Assembly: GCA_009773475.1 (NCBI GenBank) | Contig: WSXV01000004.1 | Span: 124,001 to 188,000 of the forward strand | From: Desulfobulbaceae bacterium | GTDB taxonomy: Bacteria; Desulfobacterota; Desulfobulbia; Desulfobulbales; Desulfocapsaceae | Reading direction: 5' to 3' | DNA: 64,000 nucleotides | Shown here: in pieces, positions 8,779-30,100 of the stretch | Layout of the letters: each line of letters starts with the position of its first letter | How positions within the stretch are numbered: the first letter of the stretch is position 1 | The notes under the pieces: model-generated | The model's input: the letters and a program-made list of their open reading frames with translations, nothing else | Database searches by the model: none | Told to the model about the DNA's origin: nothing | Program-made: the position numbers and the translations under genes

Positions 8779-8783
8779 GGAGA

Positions 8784-9710: not shown

Positions 9711-9762
9711 GTTTTCCTCTTTAGTTATTAATATGTAGTATTTAATACAAAAAACACTTTAT

Positions 9763-13313: not shown

Positions 13314-15533
13314 ATGAACGCCATGAACGAACAGCGCGACAGGATACTCAACGCCACACACCACGACCCTTTTCAGTTTTTGGGCGTTCATTTTGCCGGA
13401 GACCGTGAAGAAAAGGTTATAGTTCGTACTTTTCAGCCCCACGCAGCATCAGTTACCCTGGTGACATCATCCTTTTCCCTTTCCATGATAAAAAGCTGTG
13501 ACGAAGGCCTGTTTGAGTTGGAGATGGATCGGGCCGCTTTTCCCGACATCGACCTTGACCCATACAACTATCAGTTCAAGATCATCTATTTTGACGGAAC
13601 TATCCACACCGTCAACGATCCCTACCGTTTTCTCCCGGCCCTCAATGAACAGGACCGCTATCTCTTTAATTTTGGGACCCATTACACACTCTACGAACAT
13701 ATGGGAGCCCATCTGACCCAGCGATCCGGCATCAACGGCACCATTTTCAGGGTCTGGGCCCCGGCTGCTACGCGAGTTTCGGTGCTGGGCAATTTTAATG
13801 GCTGGGACGGACGGGTTCACCCCATGCGTTGCTTGGGGGATTCAGGAATATGGGAGCTATTCCTGCCCGGAATCGGTGAAAACGAACTCTATAAATTTGA
13901 GATCCGCACCCAGCAGGGCGAGATTCTTGAAAAAAACGACCCCTTTCAGTTTTATGGTGAACTTCGCCCCAAAACAGCGTCCATCATCCGCCCCTTAAAT
14001 CAGTACGCTTGGCAGGATGATGAATGGCAACAAAGCAGAAATGATACGCCCCCCTACGAACAGCCCATGGCCATCTACGAGGCCCATCCCGGTTCCTGGC
14101 AGCGGGATCCCGCTGATCCAGATCGTTTCCTAACCTTTCGGGAACTGGCCGACAAGCTTATCCCCTATGTCCAGAAACTAGGTTTCACCCACATCGAGCT
14201 GATGCCGGTGATGGAACACCCACTGGACGAATCCTGGGGGTACCAGGTGACCGGCCCTTTCAGCATGACCAGCCGCTACGGGATCCCTGAAGATTTCATG
14301 TACTTTGTTGATCAGTGCCACCAGAACAATATCGGTGTGATCCTGGACTGGGTGCCGGCCCATTTTCCCAAGGATTCGCACAGCTTGGCCCGTTTTGACG
14401 GAACTGCCCTGTTTGAACACGAAGACCCAAGAAAAGGCGAACATCAGGAATGGGGCACCTTCATTTACAACTATGGCCGTCGCGAGGTCAGCAATTACCT
14501 CATCGCCAACGCCCTTTTCTGGCTGGACAAATACCACATTGACGGACTGCGGGTTGATGCTGTCGCCTCCATGCTCTATCTCGATTATGCCCGCAAAGAA
14601 GGAGAATGGCTTCCCAACGCCTATGGCGGCCGTGAAAATCTGGAGGCCATCGAATTCATCCGCCATCTCAACTCCATCATCTATGAGCGCCATCCCGCCG
14701 CCCTCATGATCGCAGAAGAATCCACCAGTTTCTACGGGGTCTCAAAACCTGCCAGCATCGGGGGCTTAGGCTTCGGCTTCAAATGGAACATGGGCTGGAT
14801 GAATGACATTCTGACCTATTTCGAAAAGGATCCCCTGTATAGACGATATCATCACAACAGCCTTACCTTCTCCATCATGTACGCCTTTTCGGAGAACTTT
14901 ATCCTCCCGCTCTCCCATGACGAAGTGGTGCACGGCAAGCGCTCCCTGCTTGACAAGATGCCGGGGGATCTGTGGCAGAAGTTCGCAAATTTGCGCTTAC
15001 TCCTGCTCACCATGTGGATGCATCCCGGGAAAAAGCTGCTCTTTATGGGCAATGAATTTGGACAATGGACGGAATGGTATTGTAAACAGAGCCTGGACTT
15101 TCATCTGCTTGAGGAAGAACCCCTCCATGCCCAGATGCTGATTTTTATTGAGGAGCTAAACCGTCTCTACCGGGCTAACCCTTGCCTGTGGCAGCTGGAT
15201 TTCAGCCCGGAAGGCTTTCAATGGCTGGACCTTGAGGACCGCCAAAACTCCATTATCTCCTACGTCCGATATGGCAAAAACCGCTCCGACCATCTGGTCT
15301 GCCTGTTCAACTACACCCCCCAGACCCATTATGACTACAAGCTGGGACTGCCCACCGGCAGGAGCTATCAACAGGCATTCTGCTCGGATGAGAGAAAATA
15401 CGGCGGCAGTAACGCCGTCGACATCATCCAGTACCATCCCATCGCAGAACCCTTCGCCCAGGCACAATTTCACACCAAAATCACTGTGCCGCCTTTAGCC
15501 GGCATTATTTTGCGACCTGTCCCCACACCATAG
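13314..15533 (+). CDS. glgB: 1,4-alpha-glucan branching enzyme
   Basis: GlgB introduces alpha-1,6 branches into glycogen. The 739-residue protein has an N-terminal CBM48 module (GTIFRVWAPAATRVSVLGNFNGWDG), then a GH13 barrel with IYEAHPGSW, GVILDWVPAHFPKD, the nucleophile Asp415 in GLRVDAVASML, the acid/base Glu468 in MIAEEST, and LPLSHDEVVHGKRSLLDKMPGD, ending in an all-beta domain. Length matches E. coli GlgB. A second in-frame ATG at 13323 has a better-spaced GAG and could be the true start. No other glycogen genes are adjacent, but galU, gpmI and fbp are in the window. Confidence 0.97.
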   Translation: MNAMNEQRDRILNATHHDPFQFLGVHFAGDREEKVIVRTFQPHAASVTLVTSSFSLSMIKSCDEGLFELEMDRAAFPDIDLDPYNYQFKIIYFDGTIHTVNDPYRFLPALNEQDRYLFNFGTHYTLYEHMGAHLTQRSGINGTIFRVWAPAATRVSVLGNFNGWDGRVHPMRCLGDSGIWELFLPGIGENELYKFEIRTQQGEILEKNDPFQFYGELRPKTASIIRPLNQYAWQDDEWQQSRNDTPPYEQPMAIYEAHPGSWQRDPADPDRFLTFRELADKLIPYVQKLGFTHIELMPVMEHPLDESWGYQVTGPFSMTSRYGIPEDFMYFVDQCHQNNIGVILDWVPAHFPKDSHSLARFDGTALFEHEDPRKGEHQEWGTFIYNYGRREVSNYLIANALFWLDKYHIDGLRVDAVASMLYLDYARKEGEWLPNAYGGRENLEAIEFIRHLNSIIYERHPAALMIAEESTSFYGVSKPASIGGLGFGFKWNMGWMNDILTYFEKDPLYRRYHHNSLTFSIMYAFSENFILPLSHDEVVHGKRSLLDKMPGDLWQKFANLRLLLLTMWMHPGKKLLFMGNEFGQWTEWYCKQSLDFHLLEEEPLHAQMLIFIEELNRLYRANPCLWQLDFSPEGFQWLDLEDRQNSIISYVRYGKNRSDHLVCLFNYTPQTHYDYKLGLPTGRSYQQAFCSDERKYGGSNAVDIIQYHPIAEPFAQAQFHTKITVPPLAGIILRPVPTP

Positions 15534-15541
15534 GAGATATC

Positions 15542-15742
15542 ATGTCAACCCCAACTCAACGACCCGCTGATAAACTGAGAAATGCCATCTGCACATTTTC
15601 CGAACTCCTTCAGCAGTATCCTGAAAAAAGTAGGGCTTCCCTCCTGCGGCAGGTCGAGATCCAGTTTGACCTTTCGCCAAAGGAATGTCAGTTTCTTAAT
15701 ACTCATTTAACGGAATGCCAGGATCAGGGAAACCCCATCTGA
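15542..15742 (+). CDS. Small uncharacterised protein in operon with glgB
   Basis: I do not recognise this 66-residue protein. It is predicted soluble and helical, with a motif-poor sequence (AICTFSELLQQYPEKSRASL, then FDLSPKECQFLNTHLTEC) and no signal peptide. It begins only eight bases after the glgB stop and has an excellent TAGGAG ribosome site, which argues for a real gene cotranscribed with glgB. A role with glycogen branching is only a guess from position. Confidence 0.6.
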   Translation: MSTPTQRPADKLRNAICTFSELLQQYPEKSRASLLRQVEIQFDLSPKECQFLNTHLTECQDQGNPI

Positions 15743-15863
15743 ACTAACCGATCGATAAAAATATCGTAGGCACTGTGCATGGTTGGCAAACCGGAAGAAC
15801 ACACTTATCGTCTAATTTATGGCACTTTTTTTATGATATTGACTGCACGTATGGGAGAATAAA

Positions 15864-16508
15864 ATGGATGCTTACCAGCAACTCATTGCCACCATTGCCT
15901 TGACAATGGGCACTGCCTGGGCCGCAGGGATCAATCTCTATGCAACCATTGCGGTCCTTGGGTATCTTGGAGTCACCGGCAACATTGTTCTTCCCGAACA
16001 GCTGCAAATCCTCCAGAACCCAATGGTGATAGGTGCCGCATCCCTCATGTATGTGGTCGAGTTTTTTGCCGACAAGACCCCGGGGGTGGATACCGGCTGG
16101 GACACCATTCATACCTTTATCCGCATTCCAGCCGGAGTCATGCTGGCTGCCGGGGCAGTGGGTGAGGTTAATCCTGCCGTGGTCATTGTGGCCGGCATCC
16201 TGGGCGGCACCATTTCAGCCACCAGCCACTCCATCAAGGCCGGCTCCAGAATACTGATTAACACCTCACCGGAACCCTTCAGCAACTGGACCGCATCAAT
16301 TCTCGAAGATGTGGCTGTTTTCGTCGGACTCTGGGCTGCGCTCCATCATCCGCTGACTTTTTTGGGTCTTTTCTGCCTTTTTATTTTGCTTGCCATCTGG
16401 CTGTTGCCAAAGATTTGGCAGGGGATCAAGGCGCTTTTCCGCTCCATAAGAACATTCTTCAGTAGCGATGCAACCCCTCCGCCACCACCATCCGCTCGAC
16501 AGACCTGA
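15864..16508 (+). CDS. DUF4126 integral membrane protein
   Basis: The 214-residue protein has several hydrophobic helices (about residues 5-45, 55-75, 85-125, 150-190) and the typical DUF4126 features: a start rich in Gly/Ala with GTAWAAGINLYATI, a central VEFFADKTPGVDTGWDTIHTFIRIPAG, and GGTISATSHSIKAGSR. Its function is unknown; the family sits in the inner membrane. The C-terminus ends in a cytosolic basic, proline-rich tail. A GGGAG ribosome site precedes the ATG. It lies between the glgB pair and rsmE, all on the plus strand. Confidence 0.85.
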   Translation: MDAYQQLIATIALTMGTAWAAGINLYATIAVLGYLGVTGNIVLPEQLQILQNPMVIGAASLMYVVEFFADKTPGVDTGWDTIHTFIRIPAGVMLAAGAVGEVNPAVVIVAGILGGTISATSHSIKAGSRILINTSPEPFSNWTASILEDVAVFVGLWAALHHPLTFLGLFCLFILLAIWLLPKIWQGIKALFRSIRTFFSSDATPPPPPSARQT

Positions 16509-16561
16509 AACTTTTCTATTTATTTACATTACTTTCCGACAGCACTAAAAATCCTCTACCC

Positions 16562-17323
16562 ATGAATATCATTCTCATAGAAAGACAGGAACTTCAGCAC
16601 GACACCGTTATCCTCACCGACCGTCGGGCCAGCCATCTGATCAAGGTTCTCGGGGTAAGCTCTGGTGATTCAGTTCGCATCGGCATTGTTGATGGCCCTC
16701 AAGGACTTGGAATGGTTACTGATATCTGCAAACGCTTTCCTTTTCAGGTTTGTTTACAGGTTCAATTTGCCGAAGAAAACAATCAGAATCCGGGAGAAAA
16801 ACCTTTTATTGATCTGCTCCTGGCACTCCCCCGTCCCATTATGCTTAGACGGATCTTCAGCCAGGCTGCAGCTCTGGGCGTAGAGAATATCTTTATCACC
16901 CATGCCCAGCGGGTGGAAAAAAGTTTTTGGAACGCCACCCTGCTCAACGAAAAGGAATATCGGCCCCATCTGCTGCAAGGTCTCGAGCAGGCCATCGATA
17001 CCAGGGTCCCAAAGATCCATATCCATGAGCGTTTCAAGCCCTTTGTCGAGGATGTTTTGCCGGAAAAAATCAAAGATTACAGCCATCTCCTGATAGCTCA
17101 TCCCGACAGCATCGCACCCCTTAAAGATGTTATCCTCGAAAAGCCTGACAAGATCCTTGTGGCCATTGGCCCGGAAGGTGGCTGGATTGATTATGAGATG
17201 GATCGATTTGCGGAAAGCGGCTTTGCCGCTTTTTCACTGGGAAAACGCATTTTGAAGGTGGATACGGCGGTGGTTGTCATCCATGCGCGCCTCTCTGAAC
17301 GCAGGGACTCCTTTGGAGTGTAA
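16562..17323 (+). CDS. rsmE: 16S rRNA (uracil-1498-N3)-methyltransferase RsmE
   Basis: RsmE is a SPOUT-class enzyme that methylates U1498 of 16S rRNA. The 253-residue protein has an N-terminal PUA-like domain (HLIKVLGVSSGDSVRIGIVDG), then LLLALPRPIMLRRIFSQAAALGV, and the knot with LVAIGPEGGW and FSLGKRILKVDTAVVV. The usual LR-x-ET reads LKVDT here. Length is normal. It is 53 bp downstream of the DUF4126 gene and is followed by a long spacer before gpmI. Confidence 0.94.
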   Translation: MNIILIERQELQHDTVILTDRRASHLIKVLGVSSGDSVRIGIVDGPQGLGMVTDICKRFPFQVCLQVQFAEENNQNPGEKPFIDLLLALPRPIMLRRIFSQAAALGVENIFITHAQRVEKSFWNATLLNEKEYRPHLLQGLEQAIDTRVPKIHIHERFKPFVEDVLPEKIKDYSHLLIAHPDSIAPLKDVILEKPDKILVAIGPEGGWIDYEMDRFAESGFAAFSLGKRILKVDTAVVVIHARLSERRDSFGV

Positions 17324-17413
17324 TCAGTATTTTTTGCTCGTCAGCTGAATCTGTTGGGGGTCGTTCAGGTTCTGGCAAATTGCCAAGTGAATCATATCTG
17401 GCGATGTCAAGGC

Positions 17414-17443
17414 ACGTTTCAGCTACGTTATAAGCTGAAACGT
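17414..17443. repeat. Perfect 11-bp inverted repeat
   Basis: ACGTTTCAGCT at 17414-17424 is exactly complementary to AGCTGAAACGT at 17433-17443 with an eight-base loop. No T-run follows, so a simple intrinsic terminator is unlikely. It may be a dispersed palindromic element or a protein-binding site. A shared GTTTCAGCTA word also occurs in the leader of the cold-shock gene. Confidence 0.7.
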
Positions 17444-17586
17444 CAAACTCCAGGCAACCTGCGATCACAATCGGGGTAATCCTGTGAACAATGATCTTGT
17501 TAACTGGTGTACCGAAAAAACATTGATGATTTCAAATAAATACTGCTCTCAAATTTAAGCAAATGTGCACCCGACACCCAATTTAA

Positions 17587-17616
17587 TTGGAATATCGCTG
17601 CCTATTAAGAGATAAT
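17587..17616 (+). promoter_or_regulatory. Candidate promoter for gpmI
   Basis: TTGGAA and GATAAT are separated by 18 bp and lie about 65 bp upstream of the chosen gpmI start. They fit a sigma-70-type -35/-10 pair moderately well. This is a pattern match only. Confidence 0.35.
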
Positions 17617-17681
17617 GTCAACAGCATCATGACATGCAATTTAAGATTCCACGGAATAACAAACACCTAACAGGAGATCCG

Positions 17682-19337
17682 ATGCCAGATCTACATTTGA
17701 AAAAGCTTCCAGGCTACCATCCGTTCTCAGGACCAGTGGTGACTGTCATTATGGATGGGGTTGGAATCGGCCCCGAAAGTGAGAGTAACGGAGTTTTTAT
17801 GGCCTACACTCCGGTCCTCGATGAGTTGATGAAAGATAGGTTGGTGACTAGACTTAAAGCCCATGGCACGGCAGTGGGGCTGCCTTCCGATGATGACATG
17901 GGAAACTCTGAGGTAGGACACAATGCCTTGGGGGCCGGGCGTATCTTTGCACAAGGAGCAAAACTGGTCAATGAAGCCCTGAAAAGCGGCGCGGCCTTTA
18001 CCAGCAGGGCTTGGCAGGAGGTACTCAAGCGTACAGCAACCGGTGGCACCCTGCACCTGATCGGCCTGATCTCGGATGGCAATGTACACAGTCACATCGA
18101 TCATCTCTACGCCCTGCTTTCCCAATGTTTGCATGACAAAATTCACAAGGTGAGGGTGCATGGCCTTCTCGACGGCCGTGACGTAGGCCCAAAAAGTGCG
18201 CTGGAGTATTTCCAGCCCCTAGAAAAAAAGTTACAGAAACTTTCAACTGATGGCCGGGATTTCCGCATTGCCTCCGGTGGTGGCCGAATGATCACCACCA
18301 TGGATCGCTATAACGCCGACTGGTCCATTGTTGAACGGGGATGGAAGGCTCACGTTTTGGGAGAAGGCAGGTCTTTCCCTTCGGCCTGCGATGCCATTCG
18401 TAGCTATTACAGCGAAGATCCGGCCATGACCGATCAATACATGGAGAGCTTCGTTGTGACCGAAGGCGAAAAGCCCGTGGGTATTATGGAAGATGGTGAC
18501 GCGGTCATCCTTTTTAACTTTCGGGGGGATCGGGCCATTGAGATTTCCCGCGCCTTTGATGAGGGTGAATCGGAAACATTTACCTATTTTGACCGGAAAC
18601 GGATTCCAGATCTTTTTTATGCCGGAATCATGCAGTATGACGGTGACGCCCTGATTCCTGCCCATTATCTGGTGGAACCACCGGCCATTGACCGGCCGCT
18701 GGGTGAGTATCTCTGTGCTGCCGGCATCAGTTCCTACGCCATCTCCGAAACCCAGAAATTCGGCCATGTGACTTATTTCTGGAATGGAAACCGCTCCGGC
18801 TATATTGATGAAAAACTGGAGACCTACGTGGAAGTCCCCTCGGACAGGATCACCTTTGATCTGCGGCCCTGGATGCAGGCGGCACAAATTACCGATCAAG
18901 TCATCGCCGCCATTGAAAGTGGCCAATATAAATTTATCCGCCTCAACCTTGCTAATGGCGACATGGTCGGCCATACCGGCGTGGTCATCTCGGTGCGCAT
19001 CGCCGTTGAAACCGTCGATTTATGCTTAAAGAGAATTCTGACTGCCCTGGAAAAAGCGGCCGGCATCGCCCTGATTACAGCGGATCATGGCAACGCGGAT
19101 TGTATGTGGACTGAGAAAAATGGTACACGTACAGCAATGGTGGCGCACACCAGAAACCCGGTGCCTCTGATCATCCATGACTTTAATGGCAAAAATGACT
19201 TTCAGCTTGCCCATCTCGCTCAACCAGGACTCTCCAGTGTGGCCGCAACCATCTGCAATCTCCTCGGATTCGAGGCACCGCAAGATTATGACCCTTCGTT
19301 AATTGTCTTACCCGTCGATGAAAGGTCAAACAGATAG
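17682..19337 (+). CDS. gpmI: 2,3-bisphosphoglycerate-independent phosphoglycerate mutase
   Basis: The enzyme interconverts 3- and 2-phosphoglycerate in glycolysis and gluconeogenesis using two metal ions. The 551-residue protein belongs to the alkaline-phosphatase superfamily. It has VVTVIMDGVGIG (metal Asp), DDDMGNSEVGHNALGAGRI with the catalytic serine in GNSEVGH, HVHSHIDHL-like NVHSHIDHL, HGLLDGRDVGPKSA, ANGDMVGHTG and ITADHGNADCM. ATG 17682 has an AGGAG site eight bases upstream; the 16 codons of open frame before it are not family-like. It is monocistronic, with a hairpin right after the stop. Confidence 0.95.
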   Translation: MPDLHLKKLPGYHPFSGPVVTVIMDGVGIGPESESNGVFMAYTPVLDELMKDRLVTRLKAHGTAVGLPSDDDMGNSEVGHNALGAGRIFAQGAKLVNEALKSGAAFTSRAWQEVLKRTATGGTLHLIGLISDGNVHSHIDHLYALLSQCLHDKIHKVRVHGLLDGRDVGPKSALEYFQPLEKKLQKLSTDGRDFRIASGGGRMITTMDRYNADWSIVERGWKAHVLGEGRSFPSACDAIRSYYSEDPAMTDQYMESFVVTEGEKPVGIMEDGDAVILFNFRGDRAIEISRAFDEGESETFTYFDRKRIPDLFYAGIMQYDGDALIPAHYLVEPPAIDRPLGEYLCAAGISSYAISETQKFGHVTYFWNGNRSGYIDEKLETYVEVPSDRITFDLRPWMQAAQITDQVIAAIESGQYKFIRLNLANGDMVGHTGVVISVRIAVETVDLCLKRILTALEKAAGIALITADHGNADCMWTEKNGTRTAMVAHTRNPVPLIIHDFNGKNDFQLAHLAQPGLSSVAATICNLLGFEAPQDYDPSLIVLPVDERSNR

Positions 19338-19344
19338 AATCTTA

Positions 19345-19370
19345 CCTTCTGCAGATTTCCCTGCAGAAGG
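19345..19370 (+). terminator. Hairpin just after gpmI, possible terminator
   Basis: CCTTCTGCAG at 19345-19354 pairs perfectly with CTGCAGAAGG at 19361-19370 around a six-base loop, starting eight bases after the gpmI stop. The downstream sequence lacks a clear run of T, so termination efficiency is uncertain. Confidence 0.5.
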
Positions 19371-19615
19371 CTTACTAACCGAAAACATTAGAAAATGACT
19401 ATTTATTACAAAACTCAAATTAATATTTATTTTTTTCTGGTTTTTCAAGATTCTATTTGATATAAAAATTATAAGTATTCACAGTGTAGTGTTTCAGCTA
19501 GTCAGTAATACAGCCATATTTAAAGAAGATTTAATATGTGTCTTATTTGTTGTTAGTTTAAATTACTGCACAGGTTAATGGTAATTTGATTAAAAATTAG
19601 GAGCGAAAAGGCATT

Positions 19616-19816
19616 ATGTTAGAAGGCACAGTAAAGTGGTTTAATGAGTCCAAGGGATTTGGTTTTATCGAGCAAGATGGTGGTAAAGATGTTTTCGTAC
19701 ACTACTCTGCAATTGCTTCAGAAGGCTTCAAGACCTTGAACGAAGGCGACAGGGTTCAGTTCGAGATTACAGAAGGCCCTAAAGGACCTGCTGCTGCCAA
19801 CGTACGAAAAATCTAA
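19616..19816 (+). CDS. Cold-shock domain protein, CspA family
   Basis: The 66-residue protein is a single cold-shock domain that binds single-stranded RNA/DNA and melts mRNA structure. RNP1 reads KGFGFIEQ near residues 13-20 and RNP2 reads DVFVHYSAI near 25-33. Length is typical. It follows an AT-rich stretch of nearly 250 bp, consistent with the long structured leaders of csp genes, though no specific cold box can be assigned by eye. It is monocistronic with a strong terminator. Whether it is cold-induced or constitutive cannot be told. Confidence 0.96.
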
Positions 19817-20135
19817 TCAATTTCATTTTCACCCCCCTTAAGGTCTGCCTGATCTCTTTCAGGTGGACCTTTTTTTTGGATGCCATCAATACCTCCCTTC
19901 GCCTTCCCTCTGTTCACTCTTAATTTACATTCTGCCCCTTTCTGCCCGCTCCTGTTTTTTCATATCCATCAGCTCTCTTCTTGCCTCAGTAAAGCCGATG
20001 AGGGTATACTAAATCCTTAGTCTACCGACAACGTCATAAGGTTGCCGCAATTGAATGACAGTGATGACCCAACATTTTTTCAAGATAGACTTAATTCATC
20101 CAGCTCATAAAAGCCATATACCAGTGGAGTTCCCC
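19817..20135 (+). other. 319-bp spacer after the cold-shock gene
   Basis: The first 60 bases hold the strong terminator of the cold-shock gene. The rest is pyrimidine-rich, without a convincing gene. The upstream region for the next transcript starts here; no promoter is clear. Confidence 0.6.
19841..19877 (+). terminator. Strong intrinsic terminator of the cold-shock gene
   Basis: A 12-bp stem (AGGTCTGCCTGA at 19841-19852 with TCAGGTGGACCT at 19859-19870, including two G-U pairs) with a six-base loop is followed by eight T residues. This is a textbook Rho-independent terminator 24 bases after the stop codon. Confidence 0.93.
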
Positions 20136-21839
20136 ATGCAGGATCTTACCAAAGCCCAAAAAGCCCGCCTTGCCATTCGAACCTTTCAAACCCTGGCCGA
20201 TGCCCTGACATTACGTGGAAATTACCGGCCTTCGGGAAAATCCGGTGAAAAACTGGCGGAATCATTAAAATTGTTTTCCCCTGAGATCTATGGCTCCATG
20301 GTGGATTCCCGAGTTATGGAACTCCAGGGCCTAGAGTATGTCATTGACCGGATGCCACGGGGGATTGAAAAATGCAACCGCATTATCCTGACCGGCAATG
20401 AGGATTTCGAGAACACCACTTTTGAGCAGGTCATCCCGCTGAAACGCCGGCGACTATCCTATGTGGTCTCAGAAAGTGAGATTTGTTTTGTCATCACGAA
20501 AGGGCTGACCGAGGTCTATGATATCCTCACCCACATCACCTTCCTCAGCATTGAGTCCCAGAAGATTCAGCAGCAGGTTTGTGATAAGGATGGAAGAACA
20601 TGTTCCGAATGGCACGATCTTGGAAAAGCCGCAAACGGTGAACTGGTGTTGGAAGGTGCGGTACTGGATCAAGCCATCTGGAACCTTTCCATTCTTCTGG
20701 GACGTACTTATCGGGAGACTCGTGAAACCTATGAAAGCATGATTAAAACACACCATGGACAACGATACAATAATGGCTTGTTTTCGATAATTTACAGCAT
20801 GGGAGAACGGATAATCAAAGAGATCAAATTTCCAGATGAACATCTGACGATCTACTTTACCCCGTCATTGCAGGAGATGATTGCCCATCATAAATACGCC
20901 TCAAAATGGGCAGGGACTGTGAAACTGCATCTGGTTGAACGCGGCTTTCAGGAACGGCCTATCCATATTATCAGTTCCAACATGCATTCGGTGAAGAACA
21001 TTCTTTATGGTGCCGGCGCTTTACAAGGAATGAAAGAAGATATCCCGACCAGTCTCTATGAGATGATTCCGACTTTAAAGGGCAAGGGGGAAGAAGTAGA
21101 GGCCTTTGCCGAGCAGCATGGCTTAACCTTTCTCCCGGACAGCTCCGGGTCAAATATTGATGTCATGGTTATTGATCCGGCAGAGATCGACCACAGCTCC
21201 CTTCACCCAGATCTGAATATTGATCAGGAGTACATAAAAAATTTTAAACCGGTGATCGTGGTCATGGACTATGCCTTTGGAACGCAAGCCTTTGAAGTCA
21301 TGGATGAGCTTCTGCGTCCTGATCGGTTTGAGGATAAACTCCTTACCTTCAAATTCTCCTCCATCTCCATTATGGGTAAGGCAGGGATTCTACCAGGAAA
21401 AAAAGGAGACATTATCCTGGCCACAGCCCATGTCATGGAAGGGACTCCCCACAACTACATTGTAGCCAATGATTTACGACCCACTGATTTTGGGGAAAAA
21501 GTGAATGTGTATATGGGGCCGATGGTCACAGTGCTCGGCACCTCTCTTCAGAATCGTGATGTGCTGGAGCGCTTTTACAGCTCAAGCTGGAAGGCCGTGG
21601 GCCTGGAAATGGAAGGTGGACATTATCAACGAGCCATCAATGCCGCAGTGATTCAAGGACATATCTCCTCGCAGGTACGCATACGCTACGCCTATTATGC
21701 ATCTGATAATCCTCTGCATGGTGGACAGACCCTGGCTGCCGGCTCCATGGGATCAGAAGGTATCGCCCCCACCTACCTGATCACGAAGGTTCTCATTCAT
21801 AAAATACTCAATCCGCCGGCTGATCGAAGATGCGATTAA
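20136..21839 (+). CDS. Uncharacterised protein with C-terminal nucleoside-phosphorylase-like region (DUF6909-like)
   Basis: The 567-residue protein begins with a conserved-looking block (GNYRPSGKSGEKLAESL, LFSPEIYGSM, LQGLEYVIDRMPRGIEKCNRI, FVITKGLTEVYDILTHITFL) that I associate with an uncharacterised family annotated DUF6909, from memory. The C-terminal third has FKFSSISIMGKAGILPGKKGDIILATAHVMEG and the acidic motif GLEMEGGHY (Glu491-Glu493), which resembles the MEG signature of PNP/UDP-type phosphorylases and AMP nucleosidase. A nucleotide or nucleoside ligand is therefore plausible but unproven. ATG 20136 has GGAG at good spacing. The stop overlaps the next ATG, a histidine kinase, by ten bases, indicating translational coupling. 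Confidence 0.62.
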   Translation: MQDLTKAQKARLAIRTFQTLADALTLRGNYRPSGKSGEKLAESLKLFSPEIYGSMVDSRVMELQGLEYVIDRMPRGIEKCNRIILTGNEDFENTTFEQVIPLKRRRLSYVVSESEICFVITKGLTEVYDILTHITFLSIESQKIQQQVCDKDGRTCSEWHDLGKAANGELVLEGAVLDQAIWNLSILLGRTYRETRETYESMIKTHHGQRYNNGLFSIIYSMGERIIKEIKFPDEHLTIYFTPSLQEMIAHHKYASKWAGTVKLHLVERGFQERPIHIISSNMHSVKNILYGAGALQGMKEDIPTSLYEMIPTLKGKGEEVEAFAEQHGLTFLPDSSGSNIDVMVIDPAEIDHSSLHPDLNIDQEYIKNFKPVIVVMDYAFGTQAFEVMDELLRPDRFEDKLLTFKFSSISIMGKAGILPGKKGDIILATAHVMEGTPHNYIVANDLRPTDFGEKVNVYMGPMVTVLGTSLQNRDVLERFYSSSWKAVGLEMEGGHYQRAINAAVIQGHISSQVRIRYAYYASDNPLHGGQTLAAGSMGSEGIAPTYLITKVLIHKILNPPADRRCD

Positions 21840-23680
21840 TCAAAAAGCAGCGTCTTGCTCTTGTTTCTCCCTGGGTTCTGGCTGCCGCCTGTGCCTTGCT
21901 GGCTTTGATTATTACCGTTTTTGCGGTCAATAATTACCGACGCGAAAAAATCATGATGACCGAGGTTCTGTTGGAGCGGGGGGCTACCCTGATTCGCTTT
22001 GTCACCTCCGCTGCCAGGGCCTCATTCCTTGACGGAGTTCGCAGGGGGCTGACATCTTCTTGGCAACTAGCTGACCATGTCCAAGATATTCTTGAACGAG
22101 CCGCTGAACAACCAGGTATTCATTTTCTCGCCCTTGTCGATCACTCAGGAAAAATTCTCGCAAGCTCTGAACCAAAAGCTGTTAACTCACCAGTTGACAG
22201 TGAAACCTTGGCATTTATTGGTACCATAAATGGAGAAATCCACGATCTTGGAAGGTTTCGATATCGCATTGGCGGACATGATCAGGTTTCTGCATTTCAA
22301 GTGGCTGCCATTTTCGTCCCCATCGGCAAAAGACAATTTGAACGGCAGTCCCGGTTTTCCAGAGGACTCTTTTCAGGACCGGAAGGTGTCGGGAACTTAA
22401 TGATGCGCCAGCATCAACCCCCGCCGCCGGAGTGGAATGAAGAGCTGGAGCGGATAAGTCAGCAAAAATATATCCTCCTGGTGGAGCTTGATCTCTCTCA
22501 GTTGAACAAGGCAGTCAGGCAGCAACTTCTCCAGATTATCATCCTGTCCGTCGTTCTTCTACTGGTTGGCATTGGAGGATGGCTGTCGCTCTTAACCCTT
22601 GAGGGGCTGAAAGGATCGCAGAGCAGGCTTGACCGGATCAAAGCATTTCGCGACACCCTTATCTCTTCGTTGCCGGTGGGATTAATCGTCACAGATAGCC
22701 AGGGCTTGATTGTTCTTTGCAATCAGTTTGCCGAACAGATGACTTCCGTAGTCGAAAAAGATGTGGTGGGGTTGGCTCCCGAAGAAGTGCTGGCGCCAGA
22801 ACTGGCACAAGCCCTTTCTGGCCAGGACATGACAACGGAGAGTTCGACCCGGAAAGAAATTATTCTTCCTGACCATAAGGGTGGGCTACGAACCTTGCAA
22901 CTGCACAGTATGGCTGTTGTTGATAACGAAGGAGCCCCCTCCGGGATCATGCTGCTGATCCAGGACTTAAGCCAGGTAAAATCCCTGGAAGATGAGCTAC
23001 GTCGCAGTGAACGCATGGCTGCCCTTGGCAAAATGGCTGCCGGAGTTGCCCATGAATTGCGGAATCCATTAAGTTCGATCAAGGGCTTGGCCCTTCTGCT
23101 TAGATCAAGGTTTCAGGAGAAAAGTAATGATCAGCAAACGGCTGATATCCTTGTGCAAGAAGTGGAGCGTCTGAATCGCAGTATCAGTGAGCTGCTTGAT
23201 TATACTCGGCCGCAGAAACTGATGATGGGAGATGTCCATCCCGAAGAGGTCGTGCGCAAGGCCATGTCGCTTATTCGCATGGATGCGGAATCCATGGGAG
23301 TCATGATGGAGATCCATGCAGTGGAGAATGTCCCGGTCATACAGGCAGATCAGGATAAATTGAATCAAGTCTTTCTTAATCTTTTCTTGAACTCCATCCA
23401 GGCCATGGAACATGGCGGTAGACTGGACATTTATGTTGCGAGCGAGGGCAGAAATATCACCTTCACTGTCAAAGATACGGGATGCGGTGTACACAAAGAG
23501 GATCTTCCCCGCGTCTTTGACCCCTATTTTACCACCAAACCGGAGGGCACCGGACTGGGACTCGCCCTGTCTGCAAAGATTATTGAGGAACATGGCGGCA
23601 CGATCAGCGTCCAGAGTGATCCGGATAATGGAACAATCGTTACGGTCATCCTCCCTGCTAATGGCTCTGACCATGTCTGA
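21830..23680 (+). CDS. Membrane sensor histidine kinase with PAS domain (ZraS/NtrB-like)
   Basis: The 616-residue kinase has one membrane helix near residues 14-34, a periplasmic sensor region to about residue 225, a second helix near 230-252, a PAS domain from about 270 to 385, the dimerisation domain with phospho-acceptor His408 in AHELRNPLSSIKG, and an ATPase domain with NLFLNSIQAM, DTGCGV and GTGLGLALS. The design matches ZraS-type kinases that pair with sigma-54 response regulators, but no regulator gene is nearby. It overlaps its upstream neighbour by ten bases and its downstream neighbour by eight, so the three are made together. Confidence 0.93.
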   Translation: MRLIKKQRLALVSPWVLAAACALLALIITVFAVNNYRREKIMMTEVLLERGATLIRFVTSAARASFLDGVRRGLTSSWQLADHVQDILERAAEQPGIHFLALVDHSGKILASSEPKAVNSPVDSETLAFIGTINGEIHDLGRFRYRIGGHDQVSAFQVAAIFVPIGKRQFERQSRFSRGLFSGPEGVGNLMMRQHQPPPPEWNEELERISQQKYILLVELDLSQLNKAVRQQLLQIIILSVVLLLVGIGGWLSLLTLEGLKGSQSRLDRIKAFRDTLISSLPVGLIVTDSQGLIVLCNQFAEQMTSVVEKDVVGLAPEEVLAPELAQALSGQDMTTESSTRKEIILPDHKGGLRTLQLHSMAVVDNEGAPSGIMLLIQDLSQVKSLEDELRRSERMAALGKMAAGVAHELRNPLSSIKGLALLLRSRFQEKSNDQQTADILVQEVERLNRSISELLDYTRPQKLMMGDVHPEEVVRKAMSLIRMDAESMGVMMEIHAVENVPVIQADQDKLNQVFLNLFLNSIQAMEHGGRLDIYVASEGRNITFTVKDTGCGVHKEDLPRVFDPYFTTKPEGTGLGLALSAKIIEEHGGTISVQSDPDNGTIVTVILPANGSDHV

Positions 23681-24491
23681 GATAAGAAATCCTTTGGAAC
23701 TCTACAAATTCCTGCCTAAAACCAACTGTGGCCATTGTGGTGTACCATCGTGCATGGCTTTTGCCGCCAGGATACTTCAGGGATTACTGGCCATTAACGC
23801 TTGCCCCTATCTTGAAAAGAAGGTTGCTAATCTCTTAAGCGCAAGTATTGTCCAGCGCAAAACCCCGGACGATGAACACAACGAGGTCATCAAACAGTTA
23901 CAGAGAGAGGTGCAACTTCTAGATTTTTCAAGCGTTGCACCTCGTATAGGAGCAAAGTTGATTGACAAGCAACTGGCAATCAACTGCCTGGGAAAAGATT
24001 TCTTCATTTCCCCGTCCGGCGAGATGACGTCCTCCTGCCATATAAACCATTGGCTCTATGTCCCGCTGCTGCATTACATCGTTGAATGTGAAGGCGTCAC
24101 CCCGCTCAACAACTGGCTCCCCTTTCACGAACTTTCAAATGCCGGACAGTGGAGTCAGTACTTCTCTCATCGCTGTGAAGAGGCCTTGCGCCAACTAACC
24201 GATGCCCATCAGGAATTGATCTTCGAGATACTGTCCCTTTTCGGGGCCAGGCCAATAACGACCACAGGCGATGCCGACTATTCCTTGATTATCATGCCCC
24301 TGCCAAAGGTACCCTTTCTTATCCATTACTGGCAGGAGGAGGACGGCTTTCCCTCTCAGCTCAACATCCTGCTGGACCGCTCTGCCAACAGAAATATCAA
24401 CGCCCATTCCATTAATCTGTTGGCCCGCGGCATTGTCGAAATGTTTCGTCAACTCATTGTCACCCATAGCAAAGACGGAAAACTATTTTAG
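23673..24491 (+). CDS. 4Fe-4S cluster / DUF3786 protein
   Basis: The 272-residue protein opens with a cysteine cluster KTNCGHCGVPSCMAFAARI (Cys19, Cys22, Cys27) plus Cys44, the arrangement of the 4Fe-4S domain of corrinoid/Fe-S proteins and related electron carriers. The rest resembles DUF3786, common in anaerobes, with unknown function, including WLPFHELSNAGQWSQYFSHRCEE in which an FxxL/W-rich helix stands out. The start lies inside the kinase gene (overlap of eight bases); an ATG at 23661 is an alternative. A terminator follows closely. Coupling to a kinase suggests a redox or corrinoid sensing link, which is inference. Confidence 0.8.
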   Translation: MSEIRNPLELYKFLPKTNCGHCGVPSCMAFAARILQGLLAINACPYLEKKVANLLSASIVQRKTPDDEHNEVIKQLQREVQLLDFSSVAPRIGAKLIDKQLAINCLGKDFFISPSGEMTSSCHINHWLYVPLLHYIVECEGVTPLNNWLPFHELSNAGQWSQYFSHRCEEALRQLTDAHQELIFEILSLFGARPITTTGDADYSLIIMPLPKVPFLIHYWQEEDGFPSQLNILLDRSANRNINAHSINLLARGIVEMFRQLIVTHSKDGKLF

Positions 24492-24506
24492 TGCTCATTT
24501 CTCATT

Positions 24507-24552
24507 GAGACGTTATGACAGAGACTTAGTCATAAGGGGCGTCTCTTCTTTT
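24507..24552 (+). terminator. Intrinsic terminator of the phosphorylase-like/kinase/DUF3786 operon
   Basis: GAGACG plus TTATGAC (24507-24519) pair with GTCATAA and CGTCTC (24529-24545), with a four-G bulge on the right side and a nine-base loop. The stem is followed by TTCTTTT. It begins 16 bases after the DUF3786 stop. Confidence 0.75.
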
Positions 24553-24632
24553 CAGGCAAGGTCCCTTAACCCGGATGACTCAAATTCGAGTTCATTTACC
24601 AACTGTACCTTTTACTCCTTTTATAAATCGCA

Positions 24633-25580
24633 ATGATCACGCTTTATAGACTCCACGAAAAATCGCTCATCGGGGCACAAGCCTCCAGTTGCGGCCCCCT
24701 GCCCTCTGATGCTCTCTGGATTGACCTGTTAAACCCGACTCCTGAAGAAAAATTACTGGTCAGCAAGGCATACAATCAACTCCTGCCCTCTGCCGAGGAT
24801 GTGCAGGAAATTGAAGCCAGTTCCAGATTCTTTGTCGATGAGCAGGGCCTGCATATCCGGTCCTATTTCCTTTTCCAGACTCCTGACCACTTTGAAAATG
24901 TCACCATGGCATTTATTCTAAATCAGGGCCGACTCTTTACCATACGCCATGAGAAGCTGGAATCCATCCATGTTTTCAAGCAGAGAGCGGCTACCGGGGC
25001 AATCCGGATCAAGGATAATTTTGACCTGTTATTCTCTCTCTTTGAGATCAAGGTAGATCGGTTGGCAGATAGGCTTGAGCTTCTCCAGAGCGAAATCGAC
25101 AACATCAGTCAGGATGTCTATGATGGCGATAATCGGAATCTGGAGCAGATAGTATTGCGCCTCGGTTCGCTTCAGGATACCAACGATAAAATTCGACTGG
25201 GAATGCTGGATATGCAACGGCTTTTTTCATTTTTCAAACGAAGCGGCTATGATCTTAAAAAAAATCTACCAATTCTGCAGAGCCTGATCGAAGATATTGA
25301 TTCTCTTGTTCAATACTCAACCTTTCTGTTTGACAAAAGTGACTCATTACTCAATGTAACCATCGGACTTATCAGCAGTGAACAGAACAAAATCATCAGG
25401 ATCTTTTCCATTATCTCCGTGGTCTTTATGCCGCCAACCCTTGTGGCGAGCCTCTATGGTATGAACTTTGACGCTATGCCGGAACTGCACTGGCCCCACG
25501 GATACCTTTTTGCTCTTTTACTGATGCTGGTGTCTGCCATCATGCCTTATCTACTGTTCAGACACAAAGGTTGGCTCTGA
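24633..25580 (+). CDS. corA: CorA-family magnesium/cobalt transporter
   Basis: The 315-residue protein has the CorA layout: a large acidic and coiled-coil cytosolic domain (FDLLFSLFEIKVDRLADRLE, then LGSLQDTNDKIR), followed by two C-terminal membrane helices. The first ends in the signature YGMNF, the ion selectivity loop, and the second is YLFALLLMLVSAIMPYLLF. CorA pentamers carry Mg2+ inward. The ribosome site is weak. It is flanked by a terminator upstream and a 441-bp non-coding stretch downstream, so it is probably transcribed alone. Confidence 0.95.
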   Translation: MITLYRLHEKSLIGAQASSCGPLPSDALWIDLLNPTPEEKLLVSKAYNQLLPSAEDVQEIEASSRFFVDEQGLHIRSYFLFQTPDHFENVTMAFILNQGRLFTIRHEKLESIHVFKQRAATGAIRIKDNFDLLFSLFEIKVDRLADRLELLQSEIDNISQDVYDGDNRNLEQIVLRLGSLQDTNDKIRLGMLDMQRLFSFFKRSGYDLKKNLPILQSLIEDIDSLVQYSTFLFDKSDSLLNVTIGLISSEQNKIIRIFSIISVVFMPPTLVASLYGMNFDAMPELHWPHGYLFALLLMLVSAIMPYLLFRHKGWL

Positions 25581-26021
25581 TAAGGGCTATTTAACTCCCA
25601 AGGATATTGCCCACCCCTTTCCCTTTATCTCCAGCCTTTCCGTCAATCTGCTGGTGGTCACCCGCTACACCAACAGTGACCGATCCTATTTTTCAACCGG
25701 ATCAAAATTCCCATCAATGACAAGATGCCACGTTTTATCTGCATAGACGGTCAGAGAAAATGCCCTGGAAGACAGCGACATCATTGACGCTCTCTATCGG
25801 GCATATCAGGCCAGAATCCCCATGAATGCCGCGTGAATCAATTCCATGCGTCCATGGTTTCGGTTGATTATCAAGTTGCTTCCTACTACCACTCTTAATC
25901 AAAATCTAATTTAAGTCCCCTTCTCCATATCAAGTGCAAAGCCACTTCCTTTATGGTATAATTTTCATTTTACAAATTATCCATTTTTATTTCAGCAGGT
26001 TGTTTCGCAAGGAGGTCCACT
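25581..26021 (+). other. 441-bp spacer with a possible decayed coding remnant
   Basis: No intact gene is visible. One plus-strand frame reads protein-like but is broken: the stretch 25745-25836 encodes VRENALEDSDIIDALYRAYQ and ends in a stop, and preceding sequence from about 25600 could belong to it only with frame changes. The last 30 bp hold the ribosome site of the following lipoprotein gene. Confidence 0.35.
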
Positions 26022-26969
26022 GTGTCCCGAGTAATTCTCCCCTTCTTCCTTTTCTGTACTCTCCTGTTTACGGGATGCGCTCCGGTTACCCAAAACCAGA
26101 TGGCAGCTAAAGGCAGTACTCCACTGACCGCCAAACAAATCTTCGATATGGTCTCTGGAAACAGCATGCATCTTGAATCCGTTGATTTTAATGCAAACAT
26201 CTATCTTCAGCCAGACGGCTCAATTTCAGCCAGCGGTGAATCCCTTACCGCTGATGATACAGACAAGGGAGGGTGGGACATCAACGGCGCAAACCAGCTC
26301 TGTCTGAAATTCAAGGTCTGGTATTATGGCGAAATGAAATGCTATTCCGTGTATCCTGATGCCGGTAAAAATGCCTACGCCCTCTTCAACGACAAAGGAG
26401 CCCTGGCCTACAACGCCAAAGTATCCAGTGGTGATTCAGCGCACCTCTACAAATCGCCTGAACCAACTAAAAAAACGACCTATCTGCGGGAATCCCTGGC
26501 CAGCGGCCAAACCTCAGCCCAAGCCTCTTCAACGAACAGCTCTCGGCCAGAGGCAGAGTCTGCCGCCAAGACCACCTATCTTCGTCAATCCCTCACTTCA
26601 AGCCAACCCGCTGCTATACAGCAACAAACATCCAGTCCTTCCGAACCGACCGTAATAGCTTCCCCCGGCGCCTCCGATGACGAGATTGAACACACCGTAA
26701 AATCCATGGCCAAAAACTGCCCCGGTTGTAATCTTGAGAAAAGTGATCTCCGTCAGGCCGACTTGGTGGGCGCCAATCTGCAAGGTGCCAATTTAAAGGG
26801 AGCCGACCTGAGTCGCGCCAATCTTCGCCGTGCCAATCTGAAAAAGGCTGACCTCACTAATGCTGATTTCACCGGCGCCAATCTGATCCAGGCGGATTTC
26901 ACCGGTGCCAAAACCGAGAATATGATTCTCACGAATGCCCATACCGAAGGTGCTAAAGGACTGAAGTAA
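26022..26969 (+). CDS. Pentapeptide-repeat lipoprotein with DUF995-like N-terminal domain
   Basis: The 315-residue protein has a lipoprotein signal peptide with lipobox LFTGC (Cys19). Residues about 35-135 (LTAKQIFDMVSGNSM, then CLKFKVWYYGEMKCYSVYPD) resemble DUF995-type periplasmic domains. A Ser/Thr/Gln-rich linker contains a duplicated unit (KKTTYLRESLASGQ and AKTTYLRQSLTSSQ). The C-terminal 80 residues are A(D/N)L-x-x pentapeptide repeats forming a beta-helix, starting after a CPGC motif. The start is a GTG at 26022 with a perfect GGAGG eight bases upstream. Function is unknown; the protein should be membrane-anchored and face the periplasm. It stands alone between non-coding stretches. 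Confidence 0.82.
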   Translation: MSRVILPFFLFCTLLFTGCAPVTQNQMAAKGSTPLTAKQIFDMVSGNSMHLESVDFNANIYLQPDGSISASGESLTADDTDKGGWDINGANQLCLKFKVWYYGEMKCYSVYPDAGKNAYALFNDKGALAYNAKVSSGDSAHLYKSPEPTKKTTYLRESLASGQTSAQASSTNSSRPEAESAAKTTYLRQSLTSSQPAAIQQQTSSPSEPTVIASPGASDDEIEHTVKSMAKNCPGCNLEKSDLRQADLVGANLQGANLKGADLSRANLRRANLKKADLTNADFTGANLIQADFTGAKTENMILTNAHTEGAKGLK

Positions 26970-27113
26970 CCATTTGATTAAGCAGCATCCCTGGTTGAAT
27001 CAACGTCGCTCCGCCACCACAAACCATGAAAGTTCACTGCATCAGCTTCCTCTCGTTCGATTTGCTAGCAACTTTCTCATAATTTCTTCAAGACACATCC
27101 TCTAATTATCCCT

Positions 27114-30100
27114 ATGAGCGCCGGTTTTGTTCATCTTCACGTCCACACCCAGTACAGTCTGCTGGATGGTGCCATCAGAATTCCTGACTTGCTCGACAAG
27201 TGCCGTGAATATGGGATGAACAGCGTTGCTGTTACCGATCATGGCGCCATGTATGGGGCTTTGGATTTCTATGTTAAGGCCAGAAAGGCGGGTATAAAAC
27301 CGATCATTGGCTGTGAATTCTACATAGCCCCCGGCCATCGTGGAGAACGAAAAAAAGGACATTTCCATCTCGTCCTTCTCGCCATGAACTTCACCGGCTA
27401 TAAAAACCTGATGAAAATGGCAGGCATTGCTCAGTTCGAAGGATTTTACCACAAACCTCGCATTGACATGGAGACCTTGGCCACCCACAACGAAGGCCTG
27501 ATTGCCCTTACCGCCTGCCTCAAAGGGCAGATCCCCTGGCTTGTGGGTCAAAATGATCTGGACGGTGCCAGGGAAAAGACCAAGGAATACCTCAATATCT
27601 TTGGCGACCGACTCTACTTTGAGCTCCAGGAAAACGGCATCGCCGAACAGACCCCGATTAACGAGGGGATGAAAAAACTGGCAGCTGAATTTGAAATCAA
27701 AACCGTTGCCACCAATGACTGTCATTACCTTCTTCAGGAAGATGCCCATGCCCATGAGGTACTCCTCTGCATCCAGACCAACAACACCTTAAACGACGCC
27801 CGCCGTTTCAAATTTTCCTCCGACGAATTCTATTTCAAGTCGCCCGAGGAGATGAAAAATCGATTTCACCATACTCCCGAAGCCGTTGCCACAACCGTCG
27901 AGATTGCCGAACGTTGTAATCTTGAAATCGGTTTTGGTGATTATCACTTTCCCGTCTTTCCGGTAACGGAAGGGGAAACCCTCGAATCAATGTTTGCCAC
28001 CTCTTGTCAGACAGGACTCAAGGAACGTTTTTCGGCCATGCGGACATCCGGCACACTCACTCCGGCGCTGGAAGATCAGTATAAAAAACGACTTGCCCAT
28101 GAAATTGAGGTGATTAACACCATGGGCTTCCCGGGATATTTTCTCATCGTGGCTGATTTTATCAACTGGGCGAAGAATCAGGGCATTCCGGTGGGCCCAG
28201 GACGCGGTTCAGGAGCAGGAAGCCTGGCTGCCTACTGTATGCGGATCACCAATATCGACCCCATCCCCTATGGTCTGCTCTTCGAGCGATTCCTGAATAT
28301 CGAACGCAAATCAATGCCTGACTTTGACGTTGATTTCTGTCAGGAACGGCGTGGCGAAGTCATCGACTATGTCCAGGAAAAGTATGGCGGGAAATCCCAT
28401 GTCGCCCAGATTCTGACCTACGGTACCATGAAGGCCCGGGGGGCCATCCGTGACGTGGGCCGGGCCATGGATCTGCCCTTGAACGAGGTGGATCGGATCG
28501 CCAAGCTGGTTCCTGAAGAGTTGAAGATGACGATCAAAAAGGCCATTGCTGATGAGCCTCGTCTTCAGGATGCCGCCGACAGAGATCCGAAAATCGCCGA
28601 GCTGCTGCGCGTCGCCCAGGCCCTGGAGGGATTGGCACGGCACACCTCAACCCATGCGGCAGGGGTGGTGGTTGCTCCCAGCCCGATGGTCGATTTCCTG
28701 CCAACCTGCAGGGGAAAAGAGGGCGAGACTCTGACCCAGTATGACATGAAGCATACTGAGATGACCGGACTGATCAAGTTTGACTTTCTTGGCCTCAAGA
28801 CCCTCACCGTCATCGACAAGGCACTCAAACATATCAAGGCTGACATTGGCACGGAGCTTGACATAGACACCATCCCAACAGATGATCTCAAAACCTATGA
28901 CCTGCTTTGCAAGGGTGATGCCTTGGGCGTCTTTCAGTTGGAAAGTTCTGGAATGCGGGATTTGCTGGTCAGGATGGCGCCTAGGCAGTTCAGCGATCTC
29001 ATCGCCCTGGTCGCCCTCTATCGTCCCGGCCCCTTGGATTCCGGGATGGTCAGCGATTTTGTCGAGACCAAGCATGGCCGCGCCACTGCGAACTACCCTT
29101 TACCCCAGATCAAATCTGTCCTTGAAGAGACCTATGGCGTTATCGTCTATCAGGAACAGGTCATGCAGATCGCCAATATCCTGGCCAGCTACTCCCTCGG
29201 TGATGCCGACAACCTGCGCCGGGCCATGGGCAAGAAGATCTCCGAGGTCATGGACAAGGAAAAGGTTAAGTTCATGGCCGGGGCCAAGAAGAATAATATT
29301 CCGGCGGACAAGGCGGAAGCGGTCTTTGACCTAATGGCAAAATTTGCCGGCTATGGTTTTAACAAATCGCATTCGGCCGCCTATGCGCTGATCTGCTACC
29401 AGACCGCCTATCTCAAGGCCCACTATCCAGCCCAGTTCATGGCGGCACTGCTTTCCTGCGACATGAACAACACCGACAAGATTGTTCTCTATATCAATGA
29501 ATGCAGGGAACACAAACTTGAGGTGCTGCCGCCGGATATTAATGAATCGTACTACGATTTCAGCGTCAAGGATGATCGTATTCGTTTTGGCATGGCTGCA
29601 GTCAAAAATGTCGGAGAATCTGCCCTTGAATCAATCATTCAAGAGAGAGCGGACTCAGACCGATACACCTCCCTTGAGAATTTCTGCAACCGCATTGATT
29701 CGCGGCGGGTTAATTCACGGGTCATCGAGAGTCTGATCAAGGCCGGCGCCTTTGACTCATTAGGCTGTAAACGCTCCCAGCTTTTCACCATCCTGCCCCA
29801 GGCGATGGAGCAGGCCAAGGCCGCTCAACGTGATCGTCAGAGCGGACAGATGTCTCTTTTTTCTCTGGCTCCCGTCACCACCAGCCAGGAGTTAAATGCC
29901 ATCACCCTTCCTGACATTGCTGAATGGACTGAACTGGAGCGACTGGCCTTTGAAAAGGAAACCGTTGGTTTTTACATTACCGGCCACCCCCTCGATGATG
30001 CCATTCACGAGATCAGAACGGTTGTCGACACTGAGATCGGCAAGCTCTCAGAGTGGGGCGACGCTCAACCCGTCCGGGTGGGCGGGCTTATTCGGACCTG

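Follow-up and report, generated by a model that had tools for sequence, protein, structure and literature searches.

A DUF6909 protein with a predicted purine nucleoside phosphorylase fold and its gene pairing with a ZraS-like histidine kinase

Introduction

In the genome of a Desulfobulbaceae bacterium, three co-directional genes overlap one another, raising the question of whether they act as one unit and of what the first, which encodes a protein of the uncharacterised family DUF6909, does there. The locus lies in a stretch of 64,000 nucleotides (contig WSXV01000004.1, positions 124,001 to 188,000, assembly GCA_009773475.1 of 3.03 Mb in 26 contigs), referred to here as the window. The three genes, their parts and the hairpins that flank them are all on the + strand. 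The genes occupy 20136-21839 (DUF6909 protein, 567 aa, P0001; PF21850, E 2e-60), 21830-23680 (sensor histidine kinase, 616 aa, P0002) and 23673-24491 (4Fe-4S and DUF3786 protein, 272 aa, P0003). The open reading frame (ORF) coordinates agree with the overlaps of 10 bases (21830-21839) and 8 bases (23673-23680) given in an earlier note made from the sequence alone, which took the trio for a sensing or metabolic control unit. We arrive at another reading, held with moderate confidence: the DUF6909 protein is a two-domain member of the group of purine nucleoside phosphorylases (PNPs) and adenosine monophosphate (AMP) nucleosidases, likely functions in purine cleavage, and has its gene coupled to that of a ZraS-like kinase for co-expression. 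The family assignments, the predicted fold, the conserved residues, the confinement of the pairing to one branch and the junction with the third gene were all computed.

Predicted fold of the DUF6909 protein

P0001 scores 205.1 bits against PF21850, for which the gathering score is 27, and its start codon choice is backed by an alignment with 14 relatives. At least 532 DUF6909 relatives were found in named genome contigs, of which 80 were kept; among the relatives listed, the hosts are sulfur-cycle bacteria, spirochaetes and SAR324. In the same scan, relatives with up to 90% identity to P0001 carry the labels Desulfocapsa, Desulfocapsaceae and Desulfobulbaceae. Two fragments from a scan of viral contigs were left aside. 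An AlphaFold2 model built on a 66-sequence alignment has a mean predicted local distance difference test (pLDDT) value of 91.9 and a predicted template modelling score of 0.90. A Foldseek search of the PDB with this model returned 318 chains at E<=0.001, the top three being AMP nucleosidases (2guw twice, and 7uwq). The matching domain comprises residues 255-562 (20898-21821), as delineated by VIA, Foldseek and hhalign. Its superposition on the hexameric PNP 1xe3 by VIA-align gives a Z of 19.6 with 213 aligned residues at 2.6 Å and 13% identity, and the VIA comparisons with PNP-fold structures span Z values of 18.4-19.6 at identities of 10-15%.

Profile-profile comparison by hhalign, with E-values that refer to one template at a time, points the same way. 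The C-terminal domain of both DUF6909 subfamilies (the second is described below) matched a set of 17 AMP nucleosidases with a probability of 85% (E 6e-6); the main subfamily alone reached only 13% against the same set (E 0.002) and 87% against a mixed PNP/Amn set (E 4e-6). Against single subgroups, both subfamilies together scored 46% with the AMN-like proteins, the best of the four, 16% with short PNPs, 14% with proteobacterial Amn and 4% with methylthioadenosine (MTA)/futalosine enzymes. The controls, a reversed profile and the N-terminal domain, gave E-values from 0.04 to 0.62. The in-frame TGA found in some AMN-like frames is a normal stop only. The C-terminal ~300 residues are thus predicted with high confidence to adopt the PNP fold, bearing out the suggestion, first made from a GLEMEGG motif, that this region is of the PNP type.

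The remaining part, residues 1-253 (20136-20894), is modelled confidently even when folded alone (pLDDT 92.0). No fold match was found for it by Foldseek at E<=0.001 (best E 0.36) or by VIA (best Z 2.5), and the Amn-type N-terminal domain is not among its matches. The absence of fold matches does not prove a new fold; the block remains as uncharacterised as it had first appeared, and the combination of a confident model with no match among solved structures makes it a sensible candidate for an experimental structure. The segment KRRR (residues 103-106, 20442-20453) is invariant in both subfamilies. Its likeness by eye to the N-terminal domain of Amn is not significant by hhalign, and the idea that DUF6909 is a full-length AMP nucleosidase was rejected. 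The N-terminal domain was also considered as a separate module and this, too, was set aside: 5 of the 148 genomes searched in the phylum have a match, four of them in full-length frames and one in a 134-aa frame. The notion of DUF6909 as a replacement for Amn was dropped as well, as none of the 148 genomes reaches the Amn cut-off and most also have no DUF6909, which makes the comparison uninformative.

Predicted active site

In Klebsiella Amn, according to the published description (PMC9584410), M404, E405 and D428 are the only residues of the site kept among distant structural relatives; the Met-Glu pair and the Asp act on the base and the sugar. These three residues align by hhalign with M492, E493 and D524 of DUF6909, which are invariant across the 66 sequences. 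The first two belong to Glu491-Met492-Glu493 (21606-21614), within the GLEMEGG motif at residues 489-495, and the third to Ser523-Asp524-Asn525-Pro526 (21702-21713), which aligns with the Asp428 region; both assignments are based on conservation and hhalign. From 18 sequences, four of the second subfamily and 14 of the 66, the residues invariant in both subfamilies are K103-R106, N282, H284, S285, G414-K415, D425, T465-V466, G468-T469, E491-E493, S523-D524 and P526. In an alignment made by eye, Asn282 corresponds to Asn205 of Amn. Judged from the aligned sequences, the site for base and sugar (Met492-Glu493 and Asp524) is apparently complete, and DUF6909 is probably an active, divergent purine nucleosidase or phosphorylase, as far as the predicted model goes.

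Purine context and the second subfamily

A second PF21850 subfamily, ~21% identical to the main one, is found directly 3' of a permease gene in all four genomes in which it was found (L191, L192, L294 and L295), with gaps of 13, 13, 37 and 13 bases. The permease is Xan_ur_permease by Pfam in the two cases scanned, and the same sequence block occurs in the other two; an NCBIfam scan of these permeases gave no good named family. The other neighbours vary, with genes that look guaB-like and guaA-like by eye nearby in one genome. In the main subfamily, the unpaired L089 locus (7096-10487) has an iron-sulfur (FeS)-DUF3786 gene 18 bases from the DUF6909 gene, with a convergent futalosine hydrolase gene 8 bases away on the other side, and PNP-like genes are located 3-4 kb from DUF6909 in L102, L119 and L121. 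For identifying the DUF6909 substrate, the second subfamily, behind its permease, may be the most accessible starting point.

Pairing of the DUF6909 and kinase genes

PF21850 was found in 14 of 96 sampled genomes of the order, all 14 in the window's own family, and in each of the 13 other genomes of that family a kinase gene lies directly 3' of the DUF6909 gene. To look more widely, the 80 kept loci were used; one of them (L086) gave no usable ORF, leaving 79. In 43 of these the DUF6909 gene is followed by one for a kinase related to P0002, and the two genes overlap in 37 of the 43 by mechanical start calls, whereas the other six paired loci no longer overlap. Paired loci occur in Desulfopila aestuarii DSM 18488, where a gap of 87 bases separates the genes, and in Desulforhopalus singaporensis DSM 12130. 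The 36 loci counted without the kinase include L082, where the contig ends just 3', and L107 and L122, with less than 300 bases left; these three leave too little sequence beyond DUF6909 for a kinase gene to show. Considering the adjacency in 13/13 family genomes and 43/79 wider loci, the first overlap is beyond chance.

When the DUF6909 proteins of 65 of the 80 loci and of the window were placed in one tree (66 in total), 33 paired members, including that of the window, are separated from 33 unpaired ones by a single branch with support of 100/100. The pairing requires one change of state on this tree, compared to a mean of 22.3 after shuffling. The unpaired members, whose neighbouring genes vary, come from Desulfobacterales, Spirochaetes, SAR324 and others. 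The flanking genes differ inside the paired clade too, with names assigned by eye as gpmI-like (19 loci), engB-like (12), hisG-like (11), glgB-like (23) and DUF4126-like (21). The pair is kept from 90% down to about 56% DUF6909 identity while the flanks change on both sides. The conserved unit is the DUF6909-kinase pair, which has outlived its surroundings. Separately, in four paired loci (L063, L064, L073 and L115) a gene that looks glycosyltransferase-like by eye follows the kinase gene on the same strand.

A ZraS-like sensor kinase

The reading of the second gene as a PAS kinase was confirmed: P0002 (21830-23680) contains PAS (residues 273-379), HisKA (399-462; 56.2 bits) and HATPase_c (507-610; 95.5 bits) domains, the latter two over the Pfam cut-off. 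Its top NCBIfam matches are ZraS (351.8 bits) and AtoS; the score is under the ZraS cut-off of 479 (NF007688). In an alignment of the sensor region, two apparent membrane segments flank a variable region with a stretch rich in Met, His and Arg, as judged by eye; the sensor appears to be periplasmic. Loci of 20 kinase relatives were fetched from genomes without DUF6909, and a small secreted-looking neighbour was scanned in eight of them. It matches PF13801 (Metal_resist) in seven, at E<=3.5e-4 and over the cut-off in one of the seven; the eighth has no PF13801 match. The chaperone ZraP is under the positive control of ZraR in E. coli, where ZraR is tied to zinc and envelope stress (PMC7657598). 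Given that ZraS is the best match, the features of the sensor region and PF13801 beside the relatives, P0002 can be read, by analogy, as a ZraS-like envelope sensor.

In seven of the loci from Desulfobulbales families without DUF6909 (L264, L266, L270, L272, L275, L277 and L279), the related kinase adjoins a ZraP-like Metal_resist gene, and no response regulator was seen alongside, a split ZraPS-like arrangement. Reading of the ORFs showed no zraP-like gene beside P0002 in the window neighbourhood and no response regulator among the ORFs of 15000-30000. The only PF13801 gene of the window genome is on the same contig, ~125 kb off. Elsewhere, this genome has 16 strong sigma-54 activators. One of them, a sigma-54-type response regulator (C10:92883-94271, or L318:4883-6271), is surrounded by ORFs without a kinase recognisable by eye and is a candidate partner of P0002.

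Proposed role of the pair and alternative explanations

We infer an enzyme activity, a substrate class, a purpose for the coupling and transcription as an operon as follows. DUF6909 would most likely act on a purine nucleoside or nucleotide by cleaving its N-glycosidic bond, and we would favour hydrolysis, as in AMP nucleosidases, rather than phosphorolysis. The DUF6909 gene would have become coupled, in the Desulfocapsaceae-like lineage, to that of an envelope- or metal-stress kinase, and the pair would have been kept as the flanks changed. One transcript, translated in step, would supply a purine-pool enzyme and a stress kinase in roughly fixed proportion, with the kinase signalling via a response regulator encoded elsewhere. 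The likeliest benefit would be the adjustment of purine pools under envelope stress. In this way a fold can be predicted for an uncharacterised family, along with its probable active-site residues and a reaction open to testing, and the kept pairing offers a concrete hypothesis for tying purine metabolism to envelope stress.

Several observations weigh against this proposal. The Pfam and NCBIfam scans of P0001 report no PNP family: PF01048 is absent at E<=1, and no NCBIfam model matches at E<=1, so the cut-off of the AMP nucleosidase model TIGR01717 is not reached. Searches of PDB sequences with DUF6909 by phmmer and profile gave nothing relevant, and an hhalign comparison with eight full-length Amn sequences alone was not significant. 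The PNP likeness is visible only by fold and profile-profile comparison. The phosphate contacts R381 and K436 of Amn face Gln472 and Thr532 in the alignment made by eye; these contacts look changed, and therefore AMP may not be the substrate. As a guess, KRRR or K415 could take their place. The permease link comes from a single genus in a different order, and a search of 21 genomes of that order found PF21850 in four. In the subfamily to which the window protein belongs, purine-type neighbours are rare. The pairing arose once and counts as one evolutionary event. Sensors related to P0002 are present in 61 of the 96 genomes of the order, including families without DUF6909; with DUF6909 in 14 of the 96, a kinase specific to DUF6909 is ruled out.

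The single origin and the wider distribution of the kinase are also what would be expected if the kinase is a passenger, with DUF6909 an active purine enzyme and the overlapping gene order fixed once and then kept by inertia through translational dependence, since overlapping genes are hard to separate. We consider this possible, though not probable, as the pair held together from 90% to about 56% identity while both flanks changed, and the six paired loci without overlap are still together. A second alternative, which we find doubtful, is that DUF6909 has no catalytic role and senses purine nucleotides, contacting and gating the kinase on the cytoplasmic side, perhaps through the PAS domain, and so provides a metabolic input to an envelope-stress sensor. 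The retention of the pair on one tree branch through changing flanks and the finding that 37 of the 43 paired loci overlap would suit such a sensor, and the large conserved N-terminal domain could serve for ligand binding or docking. However, the residues for base and sugar are kept just as active enzymes keep them, and the 36 loci without the kinase, including the three that end too soon to tell, show the same DUF6909 invariants. Direct contact between DUF6909 and the kinase is possible. It seems unlikely that the activity of the kinase is set directly by DUF6909, acting as an enzyme or a sensor for purine nucleotides, with the purine or energy state read together with envelope damage; if true, this would be a new kind of two-component input, arising from the coupling of a sensor kinase to a nucleosidase-like protein whose N-terminal domain is unrecognised. 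We continue to prefer an enzyme that is coupled to the kinase by co-expression.

The third gene and its recent junction

The Cys4 cluster noticed earlier in P0003 (23673-24491) is real: the motif Cys19-x2-Cys22-x4-Cys27-x16-Cys44 matches PF04060 (E 1.2e-13), and DUF3786 is assigned as PF12654 (E 1.7e-40). DUF3786 itself is common: 83 of the 96 genomes of the order carry it, most of them twice, as does the window genome. It follows the kinase gene in one of the 13 other family genomes, the closest relative, and in one of the 79 wider loci, which is the same contig. Twelve DUF3786 neighbourhoods away from DUF6909 were fetched, six of them from the window's genus. Five of these six congeners (G093, G089, G084, G033 and G023) have a P0003 orthologue of 61-71% identity away from DUF6909; the sixth, G056, has a more distant DUF3786 copy of 36% identity. 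In G089 the orthologue is directly 5' of a pentapeptide-repeat gene followed by dnaE (an order seen in L283), and the DUF6909-kinase pair sits elsewhere, beside glgB (L046). In the window, P0003 is followed by a gene that looks CorA-like by eye, and then by the pentapeptide-repeat gene and dnaE. The two blocks are separate in relatives and joined in the window, so that the DUF3786 gene is a recent neighbour. The trio is a recent rearrangement junction, marked by the 8-base overlap at 23673-23680, and the DUF3786 gene would have been joined on by that rearrangement. The L089 arrangement, found in a Desulfobacterales locus that is one of the 36 unpaired loci, points the opposite way. As a side observation, the window encodes at 26022-26969 a secreted-looking protein with a C-terminal stretch that looks pentapeptide-repeat-like by eye, kept before dnaE in L283 and L040.

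It is very improbable that the trio is a single unit for sensing or metabolic control in which the FeS-DUF3786 protein would be the redox partner: the 8-base overlap, seen in the window and also in its close relative, and the L089 gene 18 bases 5' of DUF6909 in a distant unpaired locus speak for it, and against it stand the 12 of 13 family genomes without DUF3786 beside the kinase, the orthologues located elsewhere in five congeners, and the high frequency of DUF3786 in the order. Of the earlier picture of a kinase locked between a nucleotide-binding and a redox protein, the DUF6909 side survives within one clade, and the redox side reduces to the recent junction. Neighbourhoods outside the paired clade, among the 79 loci, lack a P0002-type kinase, which the earlier note had named as telling against its proposal, yet the phosphorylase-like fold on which it also depended is present in prediction.

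Flanking hairpins

The gene unit is limited upstream by a terminator-like hairpin with a T run at 19840-19871 (13 pairs, found in the consensus terminator scan), 3' of a cold-shock-like gene; the regional terminator count is not above that of shuffled sequences. The common terminator once proposed for the three genes is no more than plausible. After the third gene, the sequence at 24507-24545 folds into a hairpin of -14.8 kcal/mol, with TTCTTTT following it. Its z value is -1.19, with 26 of 200 shuffles equally or more stable, and it is missing from the output of the consensus terminator scan.

Comparison with known systems

Among the papers searched, none mentions DUF6909 or PF21850, one mentions DUF3786, and none combines histidine kinase, nucleosidase, operon and Desulfobulb-. 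We have compared the locus to the nearest known systems. Residues 8-57 of P0003 match the 4Fe-4S domain of AcsC, the gamma subunit of the corrinoid/iron-sulfur protein in acetyl-CoA synthesis (2h9a, E 2.2e-10), but the remainder is DUF3786 and has no match to the corrinoid-binding part. P0002 has ZraS of the ZraPSR system as its best NCBIfam match, with a similar Met/His-rich sensor and a ZraP-like PF13801 gene beside its relatives. It differs in scoring under the cut-off, in having a PAS domain, and in adjoining the DUF6909 gene instead of zraR or zraP.

DUF6909 has the fold and the EME and SD motifs in common with the PF01048 enzymes, namely hexameric PNP/DeoD, uridine phosphorylase, MTA nucleosidase and futalosine hydrolase. 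It is set apart from them by the missing PF01048 match, an identity of 10-15% and an additional N-terminal domain of 250 residues. With Amn (TIGR01717) and the short AMN-like proteins (TIGR01721, NF005500), it shares the PNP fold, the Met-Glu and Asp site and SDxPL. Amn also has an extra N-terminal domain, but hhalign gave no significant alignment of this domain with that of DUF6909, and R381 and K436 of Amn appear, as judged by eye, not to be kept. Compared to these systems, what is new is the architecture within the PNP superfamily, together with a lineage-specific kinase partner.

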